Source: Pseudomonas sp.
GTDB taxonomy: Bacteria; Pseudomonadota; Gammaproteobacteria; Pseudomonadales; Pseudomonadaceae
NCBI GenBank assembly: GCA_029239415.1
Contig: JAQZAY010000104.1
Location: 1-10,925, forward strand
Length of the DNA: 10,925 bases
Reading direction: 5' to 3'
The position numbers and the translations under genes were made by a program. The stretch's first letter is position 1; every line of letters starts with the position of its first letter. A model generated the notes under the pieces. It did not search any database. It saw only the letters and a program-made list of their open reading frames with translations, and was not told where the DNA came from. Positions 479 through 10,925 of the stretch are shown here, in pieces.

Positions 479-2119
479 TTACAGCTTGAAGCGTCGCACC
501 AGTTCGTTGAAGGACACCGCCAGGCGCGAGAGGTCCTGCGCCGAGGCGCTGGTCTGCTGCGCACCCGTCGCCGTCTGGGTCGACAGGTCCTGGATGTTGA
601 GCAGGTTGCGGTCCACTTCACGGGCCACGTTGGCCTGCTCCTCGCACGCGCTGGCGATCACCAGGTTGCGGTCGTTGATCTGGCCGATGCCGACCGCGAT
701 CTGCTCCAGCGCATCGCCCGTGGCGCGGGCCAGCGTCTGGGTGGTGGCCACCAGGGTCTGGCTCTTGCCCATGGCCACTACGGCCTGGTCGGAGCTGGCC
801 TGGACCGCGTTGATCATGCCTTCGATCTCGCCGGTGGACGCCTGGGTGCGTGCCGCCAGTGCCCGGACTTCGTCGGCCACCACCGCAAAACCACGACCCT
901 GCTCGCCCGCGCGGGCGGCTTCGATGGCGGCGTTGAGCGCCAGCAGGTTGGTCTGCTCGGCGATGCCGCGGATCACGTCCAACACCTTGCCGATGTCACG
1001 CAGCTGCGTGGCCAGTTGCTCGACGATGGTGGTCGAGGTGTCGATCTCGCGCGTGGCGTCATCGACCGCCGAGACGGCGTGACGGGCCTGGCCCAGGCCT
1101 TCGCCGGCCTGGGCGCTGGCGCCCCGCGAGGCTTCGGAGGTGGACATGGCGTTACGGGCGACTTCCTCGACCGCCGAGGTCATTTCGGTGACCGCCGTGG
1201 CCGCCTGCTGGATCTCGTCGTTCTGGCGCAGCAAGCCGCGGCTGCTGTCCTCGGTCACCGCGTTGAGCTCTTCGGCCGCCGAGGCCAGTTGATTGGACGC
1301 GTCGGCGATCTGCTGGATAGTGCTCTTCAGACTCTGCTGCATGTCGCCCAGGGCGTTGAGCAACTGGCCGGTCTCGTCGGCGGCCTCGCTGCGGACCTGT
1401 TGCGTCAGGTCGCCGCGAGCGATGGCCTGGGCGCTGACCACCGCCTGGGCGATGGGACGGCTGATCAGGCGGCTGATGAACAGGCCGAGTAGCATGGCCG
1501 CGATGAAGGCCAGGGCGATACCGATGTACAGCACCGTGGTCGCCGAGCGCTCGGTGACGCTGGCTTGTTGTCCACCCTCGGCGATCTGACGGTTGTTCGA
1601 CTCGACTATCACGGTGAGTTCGTCGAGGATGGTTCGGTAGCTCTGTTGAACGTCAGTGCCGATGATGCTCTGAGCAGTGTCGACATTGCCTGCCTGCAAC
1701 GCGGCGAGCACGCGCTGGATCTGCGCTTGATAGGCCGGCCAGTCGCGCTCCATGCGGTCGCCAGCGGCACGTTCGTCGTCCGCCAGGGGGGTGGTACGAT
1801 ACAAGGCGAAGGCCTTTTCGCTATCGGCCCGGTTGGCATCCATGCTCTGAATAAGCTGATCACGGCTCGCCTGCGGCGCGTTGGACGCGACGGCGTTGAT
1901 CAGTGCATACAAATCTCTTTGCTGCGCAATGGCCTTGCTCTCGGCCTCGGCGGTCTTGGACACCGATACCAGGTTGTTGGCGAAGACCGACCTGAGGCTT
2001 TCCGACAATTGGGAAATGCCGCGACTGCCGAGCACGCCCACCACGAGGGTGATGAGCGCGCACAGGCCAAAGGCGGCGATCAGTTTGGTAGAGAGTTTTG
2101 CATCGCGTAGCCAGTGCAT
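479..2119 (-). CDS. Methyl-accepting chemotaxis protein (4-helix-bundle sensor, HAMP, signalling domain)
   Basis: A 546-residue transmembrane chemoreceptor that would pass ligand binding in the periplasm to the CheA/CheW array. Transmembrane helix 1 spans about 11-31. A helical periplasmic domain of about 165 residues fits the four-helix-bundle sensor class. Transmembrane helix 2 is about 195-217 and a HAMP linker about 218-271, starting SRLISRPI. The rest is the cytoplasmic coiled coil. The conserved hairpin tip lies at about 385-422 and includes [20 protein letters not shown] and [13 protein letters not shown]. Alanine- and glutamine-rich flanks could carry methylation sites. The protein ends RRFKL and lacks a CheR-tethering pentapeptide. 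Its ligand cannot be told from sequence. The ATG at 2117-2119 is preceded by only a weak ribosome-binding site, but it places the Lys/Arg-flanked first membrane helix correctly. Expression is probably from the FliA-like promoter at 2192-2218. Confidence 0.95.
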
Positions 2120-2292: not shown

Positions 2293-2853
2293 TCACGGCG
2301 CTGAGCGCGAGCGCTCGGTCGACGAGGCACGCCCGGTCCGACCCGGCCACATCGCCCGCATCACCCCATCCCGCCGGACCAGCGCGTGCATCAGCGCGGC
2401 GCCCACGTGCACCAGGATCGTGGCGAACAGCAGATAGCCGGCCCAGCCATGGGCCTGGCGCAACACGGCATACAGCCGCAGGTCGTGCGGGGCGATCGCC
2501 GGCAGCCCCAGAGGCCGTGGATAATCGCCCGCCGAGAGCATCGCCCAGCCCAGCAGCGGCATGCCCAGCATCAAGGCGTACAAGGCCAGGTGCGAGGCCC
2601 CGGCCGCCCAGCGCTGCAACGGCGGCAGGTCGCGTGGCAGGGGCGGGTGCGGCAGGCTCAGGCGCAGCACGAGGCGCAGGACCACCAGCACCAGCAGCGC
2701 CAGCCCGGTGGCCTTGTGCAGCGTGACCAGGGTCGGGTGCCAGGGCGACAGGTTGCCGACCATGTTCACGCCGATGAACAGCATCGCCAGGATCAGCACG
2801 GCCATCAGCCAATGCACCGCTCGGCTCAGCGGATGAAAGGTGCTGGGGGTCAT
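2293..2853 (-). CDS. Cytochrome b561 (CybB-like di-heme membrane protein)
   Basis: A 186-residue integral membrane cytochrome b with four predicted helices, at about 11-33, 45-66, 86-108 and 133-157. Histidines at 14, 46, 135 and 149 sit where bacterial b561 proteins bind two b hemes; H14 falls in the family-typical RAVHWLMA context and H135 in RQAHGWAGY. Proteins of this family oxidise quinol in the inner membrane and can pass electrons to a periplasmic partner. The ATG (2851-2853) overlaps the stop of the peroxidase gene as ATGA and has a good AGGAG seven bases upstream, so the two genes are translationally coupled. The pairing suggests that the b561 serves the peroxidase, which is inference. 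The open frame runs far upstream through the peroxidase gene, but nothing before this ATG looks like protein of this family. Confidence 0.92.
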   Translation of the reverse strand: MTPSTFHPLSRAVHWLMAVLILAMLFIGVNMVGNLSPWHPTLVTLHKATGLALLVLVVLRLVLRLSLPHPPLPRDLPPLQRWAAGASHLALYALMLGMPLLGWAMLSAGDYPRPLGLPAIAPHDLRLYAVLRQAHGWAGYLLFATILVHVGAALMHALVRRDGVMRAMWPGRTGRASSTERSRSAP

Positions 2854-3896
2854 GGGCGTGCTCCTGTCTCGAGGCGTTCGCGGCTGCGGCGATTGAAGGA
2901 TTCGGCGTAGGCGGCCGAGCGGGCCGCGAGGATCGGATCGTCGGACGGTGCGATACCGGTCGGCAGGATCAAGGGGTCGAAGTTGAGGTCGCGGCAGGCA
3001 CCGTGTTCGGGCGCCTCGACCTGGTCGATGACCACGGTGCCGGCTTCGACCGTGCGCCGTTGCGCCGGCCAGGCCTGGGCCGGGTCGTCGATGGCATCGC
3101 CAGGCTCGGCCAGGGTGAGGCGCAAGGTCCAGCGCAGCGGGCCCTGCTTCACGCGGGCCTGGAGGTCGTGTTGCAGGTAGTCCGGGTCGGCGATGCCCGT
3201 GGGCAGCGCCTGAAACGGCATCTGCGGTTCGAGGCGCCAGCGCACCGGCTGCACCGCCCCTTGGTCGTTGATCAGGCGAAACGCATTGATGCTGTTGTAG
3301 GCGGTATTGGCGAAGCTGTCGCTGGGCGTGTACTGGGCCGCCCACTGGCGAAACGCGGCGCTTTCCGGGTGCGCTTGGGCGAAGGCCTTCTGCCGTGCCG
3401 GGTCGGGCTTGCCGGTGGTCGGGTCCGGTGTGTTCGCCAGCACCTGGTCGTAGAAGCCTTCCACGCTGTTGACGGCCAGCACCGGCGGGTTGTTCATGCC
3501 TGTGCGCCAGCGCTGCCCGTCGTCGGTGCTCAGTTGCAGGGCCAGGCTGCGCGTCGGTACGACGGCATCGGCGACATGGGGGTTGGCGCCACCGAGGGCG
3601 AAGCGGCCGATGACCGGCACGTGCGGTTGGCTGAAGACACGGGCGCGCGACAGCGAAGCGGCGAGCCCGGTGCTTTCGAAGTACCCGCTGACGCACAGGC
3701 CCTTGGCGTGGTTCTTGCGGTACCCCGGGTGATGCCCGGCCTGGGCCTCGAAGGTGTCGATGATGCGCTGCGGGGTCAGCGCCGGGGTGTCGATCCAGCC
3801 GGCGGCATAGGCGAAGCCGGCACCGGCCGAGGCCAGCAGCGCGGCGATGCCGAGCAGACGGAGGGCTTTGCGGCGCCCGTGCAGGGGAGGGGTCAT
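2850..3896 (-). CDS. Periplasmic catalase-like heme peroxidase (SrpA family)
   Basis: A 348-residue mini-catalase, much shorter than classical catalases of about 480 or more residues. An N-terminal export segment (about 13-32, after GRRKALR, which could be read as a twin-arginine motif) predicts export or inner-membrane anchoring on the periplasmic side. Catalase active-site features are present: RKNHAKGLCVSGYF (60-73) with the putative distal histidine H63, an asparagine in MNNPP (134-138), and R326-x3-Y330 in LAARSAAYAESF, matching the proximal heme-tyrosine motif. Members of this family act mainly as peroxidases that need an electron donor; here that donor may be the b561 whose start overlaps this stop. 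The gene is first in its operon and reads from the ECF-type promoter at 3928-3953, giving a leader of about 25 bases. The Shine-Dalgarno is weak (GAGA about 10 bases before ATG). Substrate and cofactor are inferred from family. Confidence 0.9.
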   Translation of the reverse strand: MTPPLHGRRKALRLLGIAALLASAGAGFAYAAGWIDTPALTPQRIIDTFEAQAGHHPGYRKNHAKGLCVSGYFESTGLAASLSRARVFSQPHVPVIGRFALGGANPHVADAVVPTRSLALQLSTDDGQRWRTGMNNPPVLAVNSVEGFYDQVLANTPDPTTGKPDPARQKAFAQAHPESAAFRQWAAQYTPSDSFANTAYNSINAFRLINDQGAVQPVRWRLEPQMPFQALPTGIADPDYLQHDLQARVKQGPLRWTLRLTLAEPGDAIDDPAQAWPAQRRTVEAGTVVIDQVEAPEHGACRDLNFDPLILPTGIAPSDDPILAARSAAYAESFNRRSRERLETGARP

Positions 3897-3927
3897 GCGC
3901 AGGTTCTCGTGAGGGGACAGCGGGTAC

Positions 3928-3953
3928 GACGCACGAGGAAAAATTCTATTCCC
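3928..3953 (-). promoter_or_regulatory. ECF-type promoter of the peroxidase/b561 operon
   Basis: On the minus strand: -35 GGGAAT (3953-3948), a 16-base spacer with a run of five T, and -10 CGTC (3931-3928). The form GGAAx-N16/17-CGTC is common to many ECF sigma factors. Transcription would start near 3921, about 25 bases before the ATG at 3896. The same two boxes with the same spacer occur on the other strand (3956-3981), so the adjacent sigma factor is the obvious reader of both. Confidence 0.8.
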
Positions 3954-3955
3954 GA

Positions 3956-3981
3956 GGGAATGCTTTCGTTCGCCAGACGTC
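3956..3981 (+). promoter_or_regulatory. ECF-type autoregulatory promoter of the sigma/anti-sigma operon
   Basis: On the plus strand: -35 GGGAAT (3956-3961), a 16-base spacer, and -10 CGTC (3978-3981). Its -35 is separated by only two bases from the -35 of the divergent peroxidase promoter, the two together making the palindrome ATTCCCGAGGGAAT (3948-3961). The predicted start near 3988 gives a leader of about 32 bases before ATG 4020. This also rules out an in-frame ATG at 3960, which overlaps the -35 box itself. Confidence 0.8.
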
Positions 3982-4019
3982 TGTTGTCAGTCTTTTCTGT
4001 CCGAGCCTCGAACCCGAAC

Positions 4020-4541
4020 ATGCATGACCTGGATGAACGTCAATGGCGCGACCTGCTCAACAGCCTGCGTCGCTTCGCGCTGTGGCTGGCTCGCGATACC
4101 AGCAGCGCCGACGACCTGGTGCAGGCGACCCTGGAGCGTGCCCTGAGCCGAGGCGCTCAGCAACGGGAGCGCGAGGGCCTGCGGCCGTGGTTGTTCACCA
4201 TCCTGTATCGCCTGTTCTTGGACGGCAAGCGCCGGGAGAAACGGCACGCCCGCTGGCTGGGTTGGATCGGCCTGAGCACCGCCAGCGAGGCGTCGCGCCA
4301 TGATGCGACCGAATCCAGCGTCTTCGCCCAGGCCGACCTGCAGGCCTTCGCCCGCTTGCCGGAGCAGCAGCGCGCCTTGCTGTTGCTGGTCAGCGTCGAG
4401 GGCTTGAGCTACAAGGAGGTCGCCCAGACCCTGGGCATCCCGATCGGCACGGTGATGTCGCGGCTGTCCCGTGCCCGTGCGGCGCTGCGCGAACTGACCG
4501 AAGAAACGCCTGCGCCGGTGGCGTTGCGGAGACTCAAATGA
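4020..4541 (+). CDS. ECF-family RNA polymerase sigma factor
   Basis: A 173-residue group IV sigma factor. Region 2 spans about 10-77 (SSADDLVQATLERAL at 28-42, then RPWLFTILYRLFLD at 55-68) and would bind core polymerase and the -10 element. Region 4 spans about 107-160 (LPEQQRALLLL, then a helix-turn-helix YKEVAQTLGIPIGTVMSRLS) and would read the -35 GGGAAT. A linker of about 30 residues joins them and there is no C-terminal extension. The frame is open far upstream, but the ATG at 4020 is chosen because an earlier ATG at 3960 lies inside the promoter and the protein from 4020 has the standard ECF N-terminus. No clear Shine-Dalgarno is seen. The stop overlaps the anti-sigma start as ATGA. 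Divergence from a catalase-like gene and b561 points to an oxidative or envelope stress role. The exact ECF group cannot be fixed by eye. Confidence 0.93.
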   Translation: MHDLDERQWRDLLNSLRRFALWLARDTSSADDLVQATLERALSRGAQQREREGLRPWLFTILYRLFLDGKRREKRHARWLGWIGLSTASEASRHDATESSVFAQADLQAFARLPEQQRALLLLVSVEGLSYKEVAQTLGIPIGTVMSRLSRARAALRELTEETPAPVALRRLK

Positions 4542-5290
4542 TTTTTTCGGCCCCCAGCGAACATGAGCTGCATGCCTACGTCGATGATCGCCTCGACCCG
4601 GCGCGGCGCGCGCAGATCACCACCTGGCTGGCTTCGCATCCCCAGGAGCAGGCCATGGTCGACGGCTGGCGCGACGATGCCCGGCGTCTGCGCGCGGCCC
4701 TGGCCGGCGGGTACGACGCGCGCGACGATGCCGGGCCATCGCTGGCGGCCGTGCGACAGCGGGTGGTCATGCGCCGCCGACGCCACCTGGCCATGGCGGC
4801 CGTTCTGTTGCTGACGCTGGGGCTGGGCAGCCTGGGCGGCTGGCAGGCGCGCGAAGCCACCTGGCTGGCCAATACACCGCCGATGGCGGACGCCGTGCAG
4901 GCCCACCGGCTGTTCGCCGACACCGCGTCCCTGGACATCCAGGCCCGCGAACCGGCTCGCCTGCGTGCCTGGCTCGCCCAGCACTTCACCCAGGTCGGCA
5001 CCCTGCCGGACCTGGCCGGGCAGGGCTTGGTCCCGGTCGGGGCGCGCCTGCTCGCCAACGAGAACGGGCCGGCGGCCTTGCTGGTCTATGAAGATGCCCA
5101 GGGCGGCCGCCTGAGCGTGTTTCTCCGCGCGCCGGGTCGGCACTTCGGCCACATGGCCAGCGGGCAACGGCGCGAAGGGGTGCTCGAGGCGCGTTACTGG
5201 GCCCACGGTGCCTACAACTTCGCCGTGGTCGGCCCCGCGCAGGACACGCAAGGCGAGCGCCTGGAGCAGGCGCTGCGCACGGCGTTGTAG
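4538..5290 (+). CDS. Membrane-anchored anti-sigma factor
   Basis: A 250-residue single-pass membrane protein directly after, and overlapping by ATGA, the ECF sigma gene; a GGAG lies six bases before its ATG. The cytoplasmic N-terminus (1-82) begins with a short helical domain, SEHELHAYVDDRLDPARR (7-24), resembling the sigma-binding helices of ECF anti-sigma factors. It ends in a basic stretch, MRRRRH (78-83), before one membrane helix at about 84-102. About 148 residues then follow, presumably periplasmic, with no recognised domain. There is no cysteine anywhere in the protein, so it is not a zinc/redox ZAS-type factor and must sense its signal otherwise, for example through the periplasmic domain or by proteolysis. 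Role inferred from position and architecture. Confidence 0.87.
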   Translation: MIFSAPSEHELHAYVDDRLDPARRAQITTWLASHPQEQAMVDGWRDDARRLRAALAGGYDARDDAGPSLAAVRQRVVMRRRRHLAMAAVLLLTLGLGSLGGWQAREATWLANTPPMADAVQAHRLFADTASLDIQAREPARLRAWLAQHFTQVGTLPDLAGQGLVPVGARLLANENGPAALLVYEDAQGGRLSVFLRAPGRHFGHMASGQRREGVLEARYWAHGAYNFAVVGPAQDTQGERLEQALRTAL

Positions 5291-5490: not shown

Positions 5491-6612
5491 ATGTCTTCAA
5501 CGCTCACACCCATCGCACACGCGCTGTCGCAGGCCGCCCGGCCGCCCATCCGATGGGCCGCGCTCGGCGTCCTGCTGGCGTCTCTGGGGCTGGTCCTGCT
5601 GCCTGCACGTCAGGCCGCGGCCGCATCCACGACGCCTGTATCGACCCAGCCCACAGGGGCGAACAACTTCTACGCCAGCGAGCGCGTCGTCATCCAGTCC
5701 GTGACGTTCCAGAACCAATACGGCATGCGTATCGCAGCCAAGCTGGTCATCCCGAAGCAGCGGGAGGGCGATCAGCGCTCGCCGGCGATCGTCGTCGGCC
5801 ATCCCATGGGAGCGGTCAAGGAGCAGAGTGCGCTGTTGTACGCGCAGAAGCTGGCCGAACAGGGCTTCGTGACCCTGGCCATCGACCTGCCGTTCTGGGG
5901 GGAGAGCGAAGGCACGCCGCGCAACCTGGTCGCGCCGGAGCTCTACACCGAAGCGTTCAGTGCGGCGGTCGACTACCTGGGGACGCGCCCCTTCGTCGAC
6001 CGCGAGCGGATCGGTGCCCTGGGCATCTGCGGCAGCGGCGGGTTCGCCATCAGCGCTGCCAAGATCGACCCGCGGCTGAAGGCGATCGCCACGGTGAGCC
6101 TCTACGACATGGGTACGGTCACCCGCCAGGGCCTGAACCAGTCGGTGACACCGGCGCAGCGCAACGCCTTGCTCGCCCAGGCAGCCGAACAGCGCTACCA
6201 GGAATACACCACCGGGCAGGATATCTTCCTCAATTATCTACCGGAACGGCCCACCGCCCAGACCGATGCCGTCACCCGCGAATTCTGGGACTTCTACCGC
6301 ACGTCACGGGGCGCCGTCGTGCCCGAAGGGCGCACCTTGGAGCAGACCCAGAACCGCAGGCTCAGCAGCGAAGTGCGCTTCATGAACTTCTACCCGCTCG
6401 TCGACATCGAGACGATCTCGCCGCGCCCCTTGCTGTTCATCACCGGGGATCAGGCCCATTCGCGCGAATTCAGCGAGCAGGCCTATGCACGGGCGATCGA
6501 GCCGAAGACGCTGCATTACGTCAAGGGCGCCGGGCATGTGGACCTGTACGACCGGGTCGATCTGATCCCTTGGGACACGTTGAACCGGTTCTACCGACAG
6601 AGCCTGAAGTAA
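5491..6612 (+). CDS. Secreted alpha/beta hydrolase, dienelactone-hydrolase-like/YcjY-like
   Basis: A 373-residue alpha/beta hydrolase with an N-terminal signal peptide: RPPIR, a hydrophobic stretch at about 22-38, and likely cleavage around ARQAAAA-S near 45. The mature domain shows an oxyanion-type loop GHPMG (103-107), a nucleophile elbow LGICGSGGF (177-185), an acid in ITGDQAHS (D320) and a histidine in GAGHVDLYD (H349). The elbow fits G-x-C-x-x-G as in dienelactone-hydrolase relatives, so Cys180 is the likely nucleophile, though Ser182 is close. Substrate is unknown. The ATG has AGAGGG about eight bases upstream. The 200-bp gap after the anti-sigma gene contains no copy of GGGAAT-N16-CGTC, so membership in the stress regulon is not supported. 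Transcription probably ends at the hairpin at 6636-6668. Confidence 0.88.
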   Translation: MSSTLTPIAHALSQAARPPIRWAALGVLLASLGLVLLPARQAAAASTTPVSTQPTGANNFYASERVVIQSVTFQNQYGMRIAAKLVIPKQREGDQRSPAIVVGHPMGAVKEQSALLYAQKLAEQGFVTLAIDLPFWGESEGTPRNLVAPELYTEAFSAAVDYLGTRPFVDRERIGALGICGSGGFAISAAKIDPRLKAIATVSLYDMGTVTRQGLNQSVTPAQRNALLAQAAEQRYQEYTTGQDIFLNYLPERPTAQTDAVTREFWDFYRTSRGAVVPEGRTLEQTQNRRLSSEVRFMNFYPLVDIETISPRPLLFITGDQAHSREFSEQAYARAIEPKTLHYVKGAGHVDLYDRVDLIPWDTLNRFYRQSLK

Positions 6613-6691: not shown

Positions 6692-7900
6692 TTACACGTT
6701 CGCCGATCGCCCGATCCGGCTCGTCGCCAGCGTCATCGCTGCCGACGCCACCAGCAGCGCTGCCGCCGCCAGGAAGGTGATGCGGTAGCCGTGTTCATCG
6801 AACAGCATGCCACCGAGGGTCGAGCCCAGGGCGATGGACAACTGCACCACGGCAACCATCAGGCCGCCGCCGGCTTCGGCATCGTCGGGCAGCGAGTGTG
6901 CGAGCCAGGCCCACCAGCCGACGGGAGCGGCCGTCGCCACCAGCCCCCAGAGCGCCAGCAGGCCGAACACCGCGGCCAGGTGCTGACCCATCCCGATCAG
7001 TCCCACGGCCAGCACCGCCATCACCAGCGGGATGGCGATCAAGGTGCGGTACAGGCCCGAGCGCAGCAGTGCGCCGATCAGCAGCGTACCGGCGAATCCG
7101 GCCAAGCCGAGCGTCAGCAACAGCATCGACAGCGTGGTCACGTCGACCTGGGTCACCGTCTCGAGGAACGGACGGATGTAGGTGAACAGCCCGAACTGTC
7201 CCATGAAGAACAGGCCGGCGGCGAGCATGCCCACGATGACCTGTGGCCTACCCAACAATGCCACGACGCCAGACGCTGACTGGCGAGCGCGTGCCGGTAG
7301 CGCCGGTAGGCTCAGCCACTGCCATGTTAGCGCGGCCAAGCCGACCGGCACCAGGCACAGGAACGCCCCTCGCCAGCCGATCACCCCGCCCAGGAAACTG
7401 CCCAGCGGTGCCGCGATGACGGTGGCCAGGGCATTGCCGCTGTTGAAGATCGCCAGCGCCCTGGGCACGCGTTCGCGGGGGACCAGACGCATCGCGACCG
7501 CCGCCGACAGCGACCAGAAGCCTCCGATCACCACACCGATCAAGGCGCGCCCGATCAGGTACATCACGTAGCCTTGCGCCAGCCCGACCACCAGGCTGGA
7601 GGCGCACATCAAGGCGGTCAGTCCCAGCAGCAGCGTCTTGCGGTCCAACTGACCCGCCAGGCGCGCGATGCACAGGCTGGTGACCACCGCGAAGACGCCG
7701 GACACGGCGATGCCATAGCCGGCGAGCCCTTCGCTGATGCCCAGGTCATGGGCGATGAGCGTCAGCAGGCTGACCGGCATGAATTCCGAAGCGATGAGGG
7801 TAAAGACGCACAGGGTCATCGCCAGCACACCGCCCCAGTGGGCAGGGCGTTCGACGTTGGCGTCATTGAGGTAGGAAGAGGAGGCAGGGTTCATGGACAT
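6692..7900 (-). CDS. MFS transporter, DHA1-type, NepI-like efflux pump
   Basis: A 402-residue major facilitator with 12 predicted helices. Segments match what I know of E. coli NepI, a purine ribonucleoside exporter: RPAHW near the N-terminus, EFMPVSLL (39-46), HDLGISEG, GVVIGGFWSLSAAVAMRLVP (122-141), IAAPLGSFLGGVIGWRGAF, GQFGLFTYIRP and PVGWWAWLAHSLPDDAEAGG. A motif-A-like loop RLAGQLDRKT follows helix 2 (80-89). The likely job is proton-driven export of a small polar compound, with nucleosides as first guess; the substrate is inferred. The frame is open to an ATG at 7963, but the ATG at 7900 gives a length close to NepI (396) and the same short N-terminus, and leaves a normal promoter gap to the divergent LysR gene. 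An ATG two codons later (7894) is also possible. Confidence 0.9.
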   Translation of the reverse strand: MSMNPASSSYLNDANVERPAHWGGVLAMTLCVFTLIASEFMPVSLLTLIAHDLGISEGLAGYGIAVSGVFAVVTSLCIARLAGQLDRKTLLLGLTALMCASSLVVGLAQGYVMYLIGRALIGVVIGGFWSLSAAVAMRLVPRERVPRALAIFNSGNALATVIAAPLGSFLGGVIGWRGAFLCLVPVGLAALTWQWLSLPALPARARQSASGVVALLGRPQVIVGMLAAGLFFMGQFGLFTYIRPFLETVTQVDVTTLSMLLLTLGLAGFAGTLLIGALLRSGLYRTLIAIPLVMAVLAVGLIGMGQHLAAVFGLLALWGLVATAAPVGWWAWLAHSLPDDAEAGGGLMVAVVQLSIALGSTLGGMLFDEHGYRITFLAAAALLVASAAMTLATSRIGRSANV

Positions 7901-7948
7901 CGACTCATAACAGGTGGGTGACGGCAAGGTAGGTTTGCCGAGGCCATC

Positions 7949-7978
7949 TTGACGCACCCCCATTAAGATGATTAGTAG
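7949..7978 (+). promoter_or_regulatory. Candidate sigma-70 promoter of the LysR-type gene
   Basis: TTGACG (7949-7954) matches the -35 consensus at five of six positions. With an 18-base spacer the -10 would be TAGTAG (7973-7978), a poor match, so this promoter is weak or needs an activator. It lies in the 114-bp divergent region shared with the transporter gene, whose own promoter I could not assign with any confidence. Confidence 0.3.
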
Positions 7979-7998
7979 CCATGGTTTTCACGAACTGC

Positions 7999-8011
7999 TG
8001 AGAAAAGCTCA
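7999..8011. promoter_or_regulatory. Candidate LysR-type operator (T-N11-A dyad)
   Basis: TGAG-AAAAG-CTCA is a 13-bp interrupted palindrome of the T-N11-A form bound by LysR-type regulators. It ends three bases before the ATG of the regulator gene, which suits autorepression better than activation of the transporter. T-N11-A motifs are frequent by chance, so this is tentative. Confidence 0.3.
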
Positions 8012-8014
8012 ACA

Positions 8015-8908
8015 ATGGCCTCGCCCAAAGTCAACGACCTGCAAGCCTTCATCGCCGTGGCCCGCGAGCGCAGCTTCACCCGCGCGGCGATCACGCTCGG
8101 CGTCACCGCCTCGGCGCTCAGTCACACCGTCAGGGGGCTCGAAACGCGTCTGGGCATCCGATTGCTGTCGCGCACGACACGCAACGTTTCGACGACCGAG
8201 GCGGGCGACCGCCTGCTGCGCTCGATCGCGCCGCTGTTCGAGCAGATCGCGGCAGAGGTCGACGCACTTGGCGACTTGCGCGATTCGCCCCGCGGCACGA
8301 TACGCATCACCTGTACCGACGACGCCATCGAGCTGTGCGTGCGCGCCAAGCTGAAGGCCTTCGTCGAACGCTATCCGGACATCGTGCTGGAGTTCTACGT
8401 CGATTACGGGTTCACCAATGTCGTGCAAGAGCGTTTCGATGCAGGCATTCGTCTGGGTGAAGCGATCAGCAAGGACATGATCGCCGTGCGCATCGGTCCG
8501 GACTGGCGCTTGTCGCTGGTCGCGTCACCGGACTATTTCGAGCGCTGCCCGCCGCCTGTCACCCCTTATGGTCTGATGAGCCACACCTGCCTGAACATCC
8601 GGCATCGACCCTCGGGCGCAATCTACGCCTGGGAGTTCGAACACGCAGGCAAGCCGTTCACGGTCAAGGGGGAAGGGCCATTGGTATTCAACAGCATTCT
8701 GCACGTCCTCAACGGCGCGCTGGATGGCATCGGGATCGGCTATGTGCCGGAACAGCTGGTCGCACCGTACCTGGCCGACGGTCGACTGATGGAGGTGCTG
8801 GACGACTGGTGTCCAACCTTCCAGGGTTATCACCTGTACTACCCCAACCGCCGACAACCCTCGCCCGCATTTGCCGCGCTGGTGGAGGCATTGCGATACA
8901 CGCCTTGA
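8015..8908 (+). CDS. LysR-type transcriptional regulator
   Basis: A 297-residue LysR-family regulator of normal length. The winged helix-turn-helix occupies about 1-63 (VNDLQAFIAVARERSFTRAA, then TASALSHTVRGLETRLGIRL, then RTTRNVSTTEAG), followed by a linker helix (about 64-88) and the effector-binding domain (about 92-295). Near its end stands GIGIGYVPEQLVAPYLADGR, typical of the subgroup that includes many regulators of neighbouring efflux or oxidoreductase genes. It is divergent from the NepI-like exporter and is its probable regulator; the ligand is unknown. The start ATG has only a weak purine-rich site upstream (GAGAAAAG). It converges on the TonB receptor gene, from which it is separated by hairpin-rich DNA. 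Confidence 0.93.
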   Translation: MASPKVNDLQAFIAVARERSFTRAAITLGVTASALSHTVRGLETRLGIRLLSRTTRNVSTTEAGDRLLRSIAPLFEQIAAEVDALGDLRDSPRGTIRITCTDDAIELCVRAKLKAFVERYPDIVLEFYVDYGFTNVVQERFDAGIRLGEAISKDMIAVRIGPDWRLSLVASPDYFERCPPPVTPYGLMSHTCLNIRHRPSGAIYAWEFEHAGKPFTVKGEGPLVFNSILHVLNGALDGIGIGYVPEQLVAPYLADGRLMEVLDDWCPTFQGYHLYYPNRRQPSPAFAALVEALRYTP

Positions 8909-9004: not shown

Positions 9005-10925
9005 CTAGAAATCGATCGTCGCCGACAGCTGGTACGTACGCGGCTCACCCAGGGCCAGGCTGGCCGTCTGGGGCATGCCCCAGTAGTTCTTGTTGGCGAG
9101 GTTCGAGACCTCGGCGCGGACCACCACCGGCTTGCCGCTGACGTTCATCGCGTAGCGCGCGCCGGCGTCGAAGAGCGTGTAGCCGGGGATCGACTGGGCG
9201 TTGTCGGCGCTGATGTACTGCTTCGACAGTGAGGTGACGTTGGCGGTCAAGGTCAGGCCCTCGGCGAACGGCGTGTCCCATTCGATGCCCAGCTTGCCCT
9301 GCAGCTTCGGTACACCGGTGGCGGTCTTGCCTTCCTGAGTGCTGGTGCTGGCCTTGGTCACTTTCGGGTCCACGTAGGCGACGCCGCCCATCAGTCGCAC
9401 ATTCATCACCGGCGAGCCGAAGAAGGTCCATTCAATGCCACGGTTGCGCTGCTCGCCACCGAACGAGTAGATGTTGGTGGCCGGGTCGGTGTAGCCGTTG
9501 GGACGCTTGATCTCGTACAGCGCCAGGGTATGGGTGAAGGTGCCCAGGTCGAGCTTGGCGCCGATCTCGCGCTGCTTGGACTCGTAGGGCGCGAACATTT
9601 CCCCGGCGTTGGCCGCAGTCAGGGGCGCCGAGCTGCCTTTGCTCAACCCCTCGATGTAGTTGGCATACAGCGAAAGGTCATCGGTCACCTTGAACAGGAT
9701 GGCCCCTGCCGAGCTGGTGGCGTGTTTGTCGTAGCCTGGCCGGTTGCGCTCGCCCGTGCCGGTATTGTAGGTGTCGGACACTACCTCCTGACGGCGCACG
9801 CCCAGGGTCAACTGGACGCGCTCGTCGAGGAACGACAGGGTGTCGGCGATGCCGTAGCTCTTCAGGTCGTTCTCGTTGTGGATGATGTAGGGCCACGCCT
9901 CGGGCGCCTTGGGGCCCCAGACCGGGTGGTAGAGATTGGTGACCCAGGGCGTGTCCGAAATGATGCGACGCCCCCAGTCGCGTTCCTTGTCGCTGTACTG
10001 GGTCGCGTTGATCGACCACTGGTGGCCGATGCCGAACGTGTCGAACTGGCCGCGCAGGCCGACTTCGGCGGACGTCTTGTGAAATTCCTGGCGCAGCTGC
10101 CCCAGGGTCGTGGAGATATCACCCCGGGCGTTGATCACGGTGGCCGACATGGCCCCGCTGTACTGGTAGTGGGTCTTGCTGGTGCCCACGGCGCCGTAGG
10201 CGGTCAATTGATCGCTCAATGCGTACTCACCGCGCAGGATCACACCCTTGTCCTGGGTGCGGACACGTCCCCAGTCCGGGTTGAGCAGGGTATCCGCGCT
10301 GGGTGGCTTGGGCACCGACACACCCGCAGCCAGGCCGAGGCCGCGGTTCTGCCCGACGGTGGTGTCGTCGCTGTCGAACAGGTCCAGGGACAGCCGCGCC
10401 CGCTCGCCACGCCAGTCCAGGGCCAGGGCATTCACACCGACGCGGTGGCTCTGGTCGTCGGTGGCCGCATCGCCATCGCGGTAGACCGAGTTGAAGCGCA
10501 CGCCGAACTGGTTGCCCTCGCCGAAGCGCCGCCCGATGTCCACGTGGCCACCGATCTGCGAGTCCGATTCGAAGGTGCCGGTCACGCGGGTCAACGGCGT
10601 GTCGGCGGCACGTTTGGGTACCAGGTTGATGGTACCGCCCACCGAACCGTTCGGCGGCATGCCGTTGAGCAGCACGGAGGGGCCCTTGAGCACTTCGATC
10701 CGCTCGTAGATCTCCGGCGAGGCGCGGTAGAACGGCGCCATGCCGAACAGGCCCTCGACGGTCATGTCGCTGGGGCTGGTGCTGAAGCCGCGGATCGCGT
10801 AGCTCTCGCTGTGGGTGTTCTTGACCCCGTTGGTGAAGACCGACGGGTCGGTGGCGGCGATCACGTCGGTGATGTCCCGGGCCTGCAGGTCCTGCACGTA
10901 CTGCTCGGTGTAGCTGAGCGTGCTG
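9005..10925 (-). CDS. TonB-dependent siderophore-type outer-membrane receptor (N-terminus outside window)
   Basis: The frame stays open to the window edge and encodes 639 visible residues; the signal peptide and TonB box lie outside. The visible part starts in the plug domain, with NTHSESYAIRGFS, then ERIEVLKGPSVLLNGMPPNG and VGGTINLVPKRA, all typical plug motifs of ferric-siderophore receptors. About 520 residues of beta-barrel follow, with the hallmarks of paired strands and long loops, for example GYTLFDAGARY late in the barrel. It ends TYQLSATIDF, the aromatic C-terminal strand needed for barrel insertion. It would import a ferric chelate or similar large ligand using TonB energy; the ligand cannot be named. 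An internal GTG at 10895-10897 is not the start, because plug sequence continues upstream of it (LSYTEQYVQDL). No cognate sigma/anti-sigma pair is adjacent at its 3' side. Confidence 0.93.
   Translation of the reverse strand, partial: STLSYTEQYVQDLQARDITDVIAATDPSVFTNGVKNTHSESYAIRGFSTSPSDMTVEGLFGMAPFYRASPEIYERIEVLKGPSVLLNGMPPNGSVGGTINLVPKRAADTPLTRVTGTFESDSQIGGHVDIGRRFGEGNQFGVRFNSVYRDGDAATDDQSHRVGVNALALDWRGERARLSLDLFDSDDTTVGQNRGLGLAAGVSVPKPPSADTLLNPDWGRVRTQDKGVILRGEYALSDQLTAYGAVGTSKTHYQYSGAMSATVINARGDISTTLGQLRQEFHKTSAEVGLRGQFDTFGIGHQWSINATQYSDKERDWGRRIISDTPWVTNLYHPVWGPKAPEAWPYIIHNENDLKSYGIADTLSFLDERVQLTLGVRRQEVVSDTYNTGTGERNRPGYDKHATSSAGAILFKVTDDLSLYANYIEGLSKGSSAPLTAANAGEMFAPYESKQREIGAKLDLGTFTHTLALYEIKRPNGYTDPATNIYSFGGEQRNRGIEWTFFGSPVMNVRLMGGVAYVDPKVTKASTSTQEGKTATGVPKLQGKLGIEWDTPFAEGLTLTANVTSLSKQYISADNAQSIPGYTLFDAGARYAMNVSGKPVVVRAEVSNLANKNYWGMPQTASLALGEPRTYQLSATIDF

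Follow-up and report, generated by a model that had tools for sequence, protein, structure and literature searches.

A conserved pair of divergent ECF26-type promoters between a sigma/anti-sigma operon and a peroxidase/cytochrome b561 operon in Pseudomonas

Two divergent operons and the promoters between them

The window, by which we mean the whole stretch of 10,925 bases of Pseudomonas DNA analysed here, includes two divergently transcribed operons (Table 1). A sigma gene and an anti-sigma gene lie to the right of the intergenic region, and genes for a peroxidase and a cytochrome b561 lie to the left, as described in the original prediction. The sigma protein matches the Pfam domains Sigma70_r2 and Sigma70_r4_2, plus overlapping related models, which is the sigma2/sigma4-only make-up of an ECF factor. 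It is 42% identical over 149 amino acids to the sigma factor of the SMa0143 (RpoE6) region of pSymA, with an E value of 3e-26 that was computed in an eight-locus database and with ECF26 as the only ECF group scored; the pSymA sigma gene was recognised from the promoter sequences of its neighbours SMa0142 and SMa0144, which PMC6180224 gives. The anti-sigma protein scored 28.4 bits against the NCBIfam anti-sigma model, for which the cut-off is 100, and gave no Pfam match; by eye, its translation has a single hydrophobic segment behind the N-terminal part. The peroxidase is likely to be exported, judging by an N-terminal hydrophobic segment that was also read by eye. The nearest locus to the window is that of P. 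entomophila 6C6 (L001), in which the sigma protein is identical and the peroxidase 99% identical. Other genes of the window, spanning 479-2119(-), 5491-6612(+), 6692-8908 and 9005-10897(-), include a chemotaxis receptor, an alpha/beta hydrolase and a LysR regulator, identified by Pfam matches, and frames that by eye resemble an MFS transporter and a TonB receptor.

Table 1. Genes and regulatory features of the divergent locus, in coordinates of the window.
Feature	Position	Strand	Description
Cytochrome b561 family membrane protein	2293..2853	-	PF01292, E 1e-29; start overlaps end of peroxidase gene
Catalase-family peroxidase	2850..3896	-	PF00199, E 4e-25
ECF26-type promoter toward peroxidase/b561 operon	3928..3953	-	-35 GGGAAT 3953-3948, spacer 16, -10 CGTC 3931-3928
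Putative UP element of plus promoter	3937..3947		A/T-rich tract in minus spacer, -19 to -9 of plus -35; 8/11 A/T; function inferred
ATTCCCGAGGGAAT, two -35 boxes and 2-bp gap	3948..3961		Exact form in 3/103 distinct divergent loci, all P. entomophila-like
ECF26-type promoter toward sigma/anti-sigma operon	3956..3981	+	-35 GGGAAT 3956-3961, spacer 16, -10 CGTC 3978-3981
Putative UP position of minus promoter	3962..3972		Start of plus spacer, -19 to -9 of minus -35; 5/11 A/T; function inferred
ECF sigma factor, 173 aa, ECF26-like	4020..4541	+	Domain matches and 42% identity to pSymA sigma
Probable anti-sigma factor, 250 aa	4538..5290	+	Start overlaps sigma stop

The motif GGGAAT-N16-CGTC occurs once on each strand between the operons, and there is no third copy in the window. 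Its chance expectation in the window is 0.03, and two copies were seen in none of 200 shuffles. The -35 boxes come together in ATTCCCGAGGGAAT, which occurs a single time in the window and is a perfect inverted repeat except for the central GA. The arrangement first reported, with the motif on both strands, equal spacers and -35 boxes two bases apart, is thus confirmed. A simple scan of 3800-4100 found neither a sigma-70-like promoter nor a terminator. The two copies had been described as mirror images, a description that comparison with relatives qualifies. The box in relatives is NGGAATA(A), in which the first base varies and the A after the T is almost invariant, being present in 58 of the 62 distinct compact plus-side promoters described below. 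The plus copy of the window, GGGAATGC, lacks this A and reads GGAATG rather than the consensus GGAATA; the two window copies are therefore unequal. The predicted transcription starts, placed at first near 3988(+) and 3921(-), shift to about 3991(+) and about 3918(-) when scaled from the mapped sorT promoter of S. meliloti, which by our own count from Table 1 of PMC6180224 starts 35 nt past the first G of GGGAAT by both mapping methods.

The window motif agrees with the ECF26 consensus, -35 GGAATA and -10 GT (PMC6180224, section 7), and with the mapped ECF26 promoters of the same paper. This consensus is shared with RpoE1, RpoE4 and RpoE6, the ECF26 factors of S. meliloti, and these have a downstream anti-sigma factor with membrane and periplasmic parts (PMC6180224), as may also be the case in the window. 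Activation of its own operon is reported for RpoE1 and argued for RpoE6, and ecfR4 is listed in Table 1 as induced by RpoE4 (PMC6180224). Moreover, rpoE6 is divergent from a serine-protease gene that is its target, an arrangement described as widely conserved for ECF26 (PMC6180224). The targets differ, those of S. meliloti including an operon for a sulfite oxidase or a gene for a serine protease, whereas here they would be a catalase/b561 pair, and mirror-adjacent -35 boxes do not appear in the available portion of the S. meliloti ECF26 description in PMC6180224.

Conservation of the promoter pair

The sigma factor was searched against 398 Pseudomonas genomes, of which 291 gave a match at E values up to 1e-20, and 90 of the Pseudomonas matches were examined as loci, in addition to loci from further searches. 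A class-wide search of 369 genomes gave, at E 1e-32, only G001 and one other match. The resulting divergent set comprises 103 distinct loci, counting the window, in which a catalase-family gene is divergent from the sigma gene; the terms P. putida-type, P. fluorescens-type and Burkholderia-type are labels of this analysis, given by similarity and search group. In 101 of the 103 loci the motif NGGAAT-N16-CG(T/A)(C/A/T) is directed toward each gene, and the remaining two have 17-nt spacers, on one side in L090 and on both sides in a Gluconobacter plasmid (L118). The original claim of two ECF-type promoters facing both operons is upheld by these counts, and from the sequences both promoters would be expected to depend on the neighbouring sigma factor.

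The distance between the two -35 boxes varies widely. A gap of 2 bp is found in three loci, namely the window, L001 and L002. It is 4-7 bp in 59 loci (4 in 3, 5 in 39, 6 in 12 and 7 in 5), 23-26 bp in 34 loci (23 in 13, 24 in 8 and 26 in 13), and 29, 58, 92, 169 and 203 bp in one locus each, with the gap of the last two loci not measurable by the strict pattern. The half-sites are thus close together (2-7 bp) in 62 of the 103 loci, which we term compact. The original prediction had attached importance to the palindrome and had named in advance its loss from close relatives that keep the same genes as evidence against this view; comparison of the relatives found exactly that, the exact form being confined to the three loci with the 2-bp gap. 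Compactness is a lineage trait and the exact palindrome is not, its mirror form being a detail at the level of the species. In a tree built from 128 sigma rows, in which the bootstrap is unsettled, several branches are long and L088 and L089 are placed unsurely, the 2-bp form falls together with the forms of 5 and 6 bp at a support of 97/88, and the wide-gap loci are nested within compact loci. Inserts in L032, L033, L027 and L037 widen the distance between the -35 boxes to 58-203 bp. The gaps of L032 and L033 contain inverted stretches that by eye resemble REP elements, and in both loci a second GGGAAT persists beside the minus box.

The family of a Cupriavidus genome supplied 21 loci that have the divergent module, and both motifs are present in all 21, separated by 23-24 bp with an A/T tract between them. 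Kosakonia and Pantoea have a different arrangement, in which the catalase, b561, sigma and anti-sigma genes are co-directional and a single copy of the motif stands at the head (5 of 5 distinct loci), so that the module seems functional without a divergent pair. An apparently ECF26-controlled peroxidase/cytochrome b561 module is found in Pseudomonas, the Cupriavidus family, Kosakonia, Pantoea and a Gluconobacter plasmid. A search of titles and abstract openings in the open-licence PMC literature found no paper that deals with the Pseudomonas peroxidase/b561/ECF locus.

In 24 distinct loci, including the distant relatives L008, L009 and the pSymA locus L119, the DNA examined showed no catalase gene. 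Eleven P. fluorescens-type loci lack an adjacent catalase gene (L091-L094, L097, L101, L103, L104, L109, L113 and L114), but each of the 11 retains a motif directed toward sigma. A long divergent frame, by eye an NRPS-like adenylation protein, is present in 8 of the 9 P. fluorescens-type loci viewed, L091 being the exception; L091 and L093 carry an additional motif facing away, 24 bp off. At L117 of Cupriavidus campinensis, where 6.4 kb were examined with no catalase match, two tandem GGAATAA boxes lie 21 bp apart upstream of sigma, at about 2902-2948(+).

The motif had also been proposed as a precise means of finding the rest of the regulon, for which it proved weak. GGGAAT-N16-CGTC gave 9 matches in G001 and 6 in G002, against 4 and 2 for the reversed control. 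In 12 chosen genomes GGAATA-N15-CGTC matched 64 times and its reversed control 35 times; this locus accounts for 22 of the 64. With the other 42 matches near the 35 of the control, no wider regulon was found in these 12 genomes, and the regulon looks local. Sites of the form GGGAATTACTC...CGTC near a topoisomerase IB-like gene, at about 1501-1526(-) in L010 and 1501-1526(+) in L021, which come from two Pseudomonas genomes, were excluded from the regulon: the A typical of ECF26 is missing behind their GGGAAT, and it is not clear which gene would lie downstream.

A/T-rich tracts in the spacers

The alpha subunits of RNA polymerase bind UP elements at about -44 to -54. ECF promoters of GC-rich genomes are reported to have been supplied with synthetic UP elements so that they would function in E. 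coli (PMC3817407). For the present promoters the corresponding segment, which lies 9-19 nt before the -35 box, has a mean A/T content of 0.98 in the 5 co-directional promoters, 0.80-0.81 in 66 mid-gap promoters, 0.72 in 18 single promoters and 0.78-0.82 in the 124 compact promoters, with overall values of 0.80 for compact and 0.80 for non-compact promoters. In compact pairs this stretch is made up mostly of the end of the partner's box and the early part of its spacer. Spacer positions 3-8 are 0.73 A/T in the 124 compact promoters versus 0.26 in 89 non-compact ones, and positions 9-16 of compact promoters are 0.24-0.28. The Mann-Whitney p value for the compact versus non-compact contrast, 3e-33, is overstated, since the compact loci belong mostly to one clade and the contrast is thus near to one evolutionary event. 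In pairs with a 5-bp gap, the gap bases and the partner's three C's form an 8-base G+C-rich offset (0.21-0.24 A/T), which resembles that of the co-directional promoters (0.30) and of P. fluorescens-type pairs and is less clean in the mid-gap set, including Burkholderia-type pairs (0.47-0.49 A/T). The ten promoters of five wide-gap loci keep both motifs and have upstream A/T means of 0.55 on the plus and 0.36 on the minus side. The plus spacer of the window is poor in A/T (0.45) at the positions that would act for the minus promoter.

What is new here is the reciprocal placement of A/T tracts in compact pairs; no paper on reciprocal UP elements was found among titles and abstract openings of the open-licence PMC literature. 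From this placement we suggest, tentatively, that each compact promoter may serve as the UP element of its partner, weakly so in the window itself. It is likewise conceivable, though doubtful, that the P. putida-type element of about 54-59 bp consists of two ECF promoters brought so close as to interlock, which through reciprocal UP elements would have their recruitment signals in common and would admit one polymerase at once, the ratio of regulator to effector being thereby fixed. As regards the UP step only, the promoters may instead be plain divergent ECF promoters that are functionally unlinked, with adjacency and A/T-rich spacers reflecting lineage history, for example the shortening of a 26-bp gap by some 21 bp. 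We regard this as quite possible, if short of probable. It accords with the restriction of compact loci mostly to one clade, with the retention of both motifs in the nested wide-gap loci, and with the lower upstream A/T of wide-gap promoters that have not lost their motifs; however, it accounts poorly for A/T enrichment at spacer positions 3-8 and not at positions 9-16. The reciprocal placement of the tracts is the part worth testing, and the locus is a small and conserved system in which to ask how far two promoters of the same sigma factor can be compressed and whether the spacer of one can be the UP element of the other. Should reciprocal UP sites prove real, models of promoters in which the spacer counts as neutral would miss information in divergent regions.

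Regulation of the two operons

Expression data are available for a likely counterpart. In B. cenocepacia biofilms, the catalase gene BCAL3477 and its divergent neighbour, the sigma gene BCAL3478, are expressed highly alike and are induced by H2O2 (PMC2830190). Microarray values were 2.7 for BCAL3477 and 3.4 for BCAL3478; by qPCR they were 1.7, 6.5 and 23.1 for BCAL3477, and not significant, 5.5 and 16.6 for BCAL3478, a series that, going by part of the table header, seems to stand for 15, 30 and 60 min of exposure to H2O2 (PMC2830190). Neither gene responded significantly to hypochlorite, and the authors take the lateness of the induction to point to an indirect trigger and not to direct removal of H2O2 (PMC2830190). 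BCAL3478, or Bcen-EcfB, is 522 bp long by its coordinates (PMC2194791), and the pair resembles the window both in the divergence of a catalase and an ECF sigma gene and in the size of the latter (PMC2830190, PMC2194791). Gene order, size and the 21 Cupriavidus-family loci indicate that BCAL3477/BCAL3478 is probably homologous to the window module, although loci of this kind have a gap of 23-24 bp with a central A/T tract whereas the window gap is compact.

The promoter pair is real, well conserved and of a known kind. It probably acts as a bidirectional, autoregulated ECF26-type promoter through which regulator and effector are induced jointly. The anti-sigma factor would release sigma in response to an envelope or oxidative signal, and a single species of sigma-RNA polymerase would then start transcription both ways. 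Rightward transcription would yield more sigma and anti-sigma, a positive feedback, and leftward transcription would yield the probably exported peroxidase together with cytochrome b561, which may hand quinol electrons to the peroxidase; both outputs would go up jointly. In compact pairs the A/T tract within the partner's spacer might allow the promoters to aid each other's polymerase recruitment, with probably one polymerase at a time on the core.

The original prediction saw in the adjacent -35 boxes a competition switch, in which mutually exclusive binding shares out a limited amount of active sigma between regulator and effector. This we consider unlikely. The boxes are indeed 2-7 bp apart in the compact loci, where two polymerases would probably overlap in their upstream parts. 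Occlusion between divergent promoters also has an ECF precedent in HrpL of P. syringae, which when acting at hrpJ represses hrpL. As might occur here, the ECF polymerase bound on one side thereby influences the divergent promoter that drives its sigma gene; unlike the window promoters, which both look to be of the same ECF type, the repressed hrpL promoter is a sigma-54 promoter (PMC5263251). However, loci that all retain the genes have gaps of anything between 2 and 203 bp, co-directional versions exist with a single motif copy, and the likely Burkholderia counterpart is co-induced (PMC2830190), BCAL3477 and BCAL3478 rising together, which is unlike the outcome of a switch between them. A single locus, moreover, would hardly deplete the cellular pool of sigma, and adjacency could at most cause local occlusion. 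The varied gaps, the single-copy co-directional operons and the Burkholderia co-induction thus favour joint induction over the switch. Local occlusion is plausible where the pair is compact, but the range of gaps and the existence of co-directional versions suggest that it is non-essential. It is far less probable still that the palindrome is an operator for a dimeric repressor or activator, its likeness to promoters being secondary. The inverted repeat is unique in the window and near-perfect, yet the exact repeat is rare among the divergent loci, half-sites lie up to 203 bp apart with each still 16 nt from its own CGTC, and a single half-site with CGTC heads the co-directional operons. We rejected this reading because the half-sites part while each keeps its own -10 element.

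With regard to the signal on which joint induction would depend, the translation of the anti-sigma gene (4538-5290), inspected by eye, is free of cysteine, which makes a thiol-based peroxide sensor within the anti-sigma factor unlikely.
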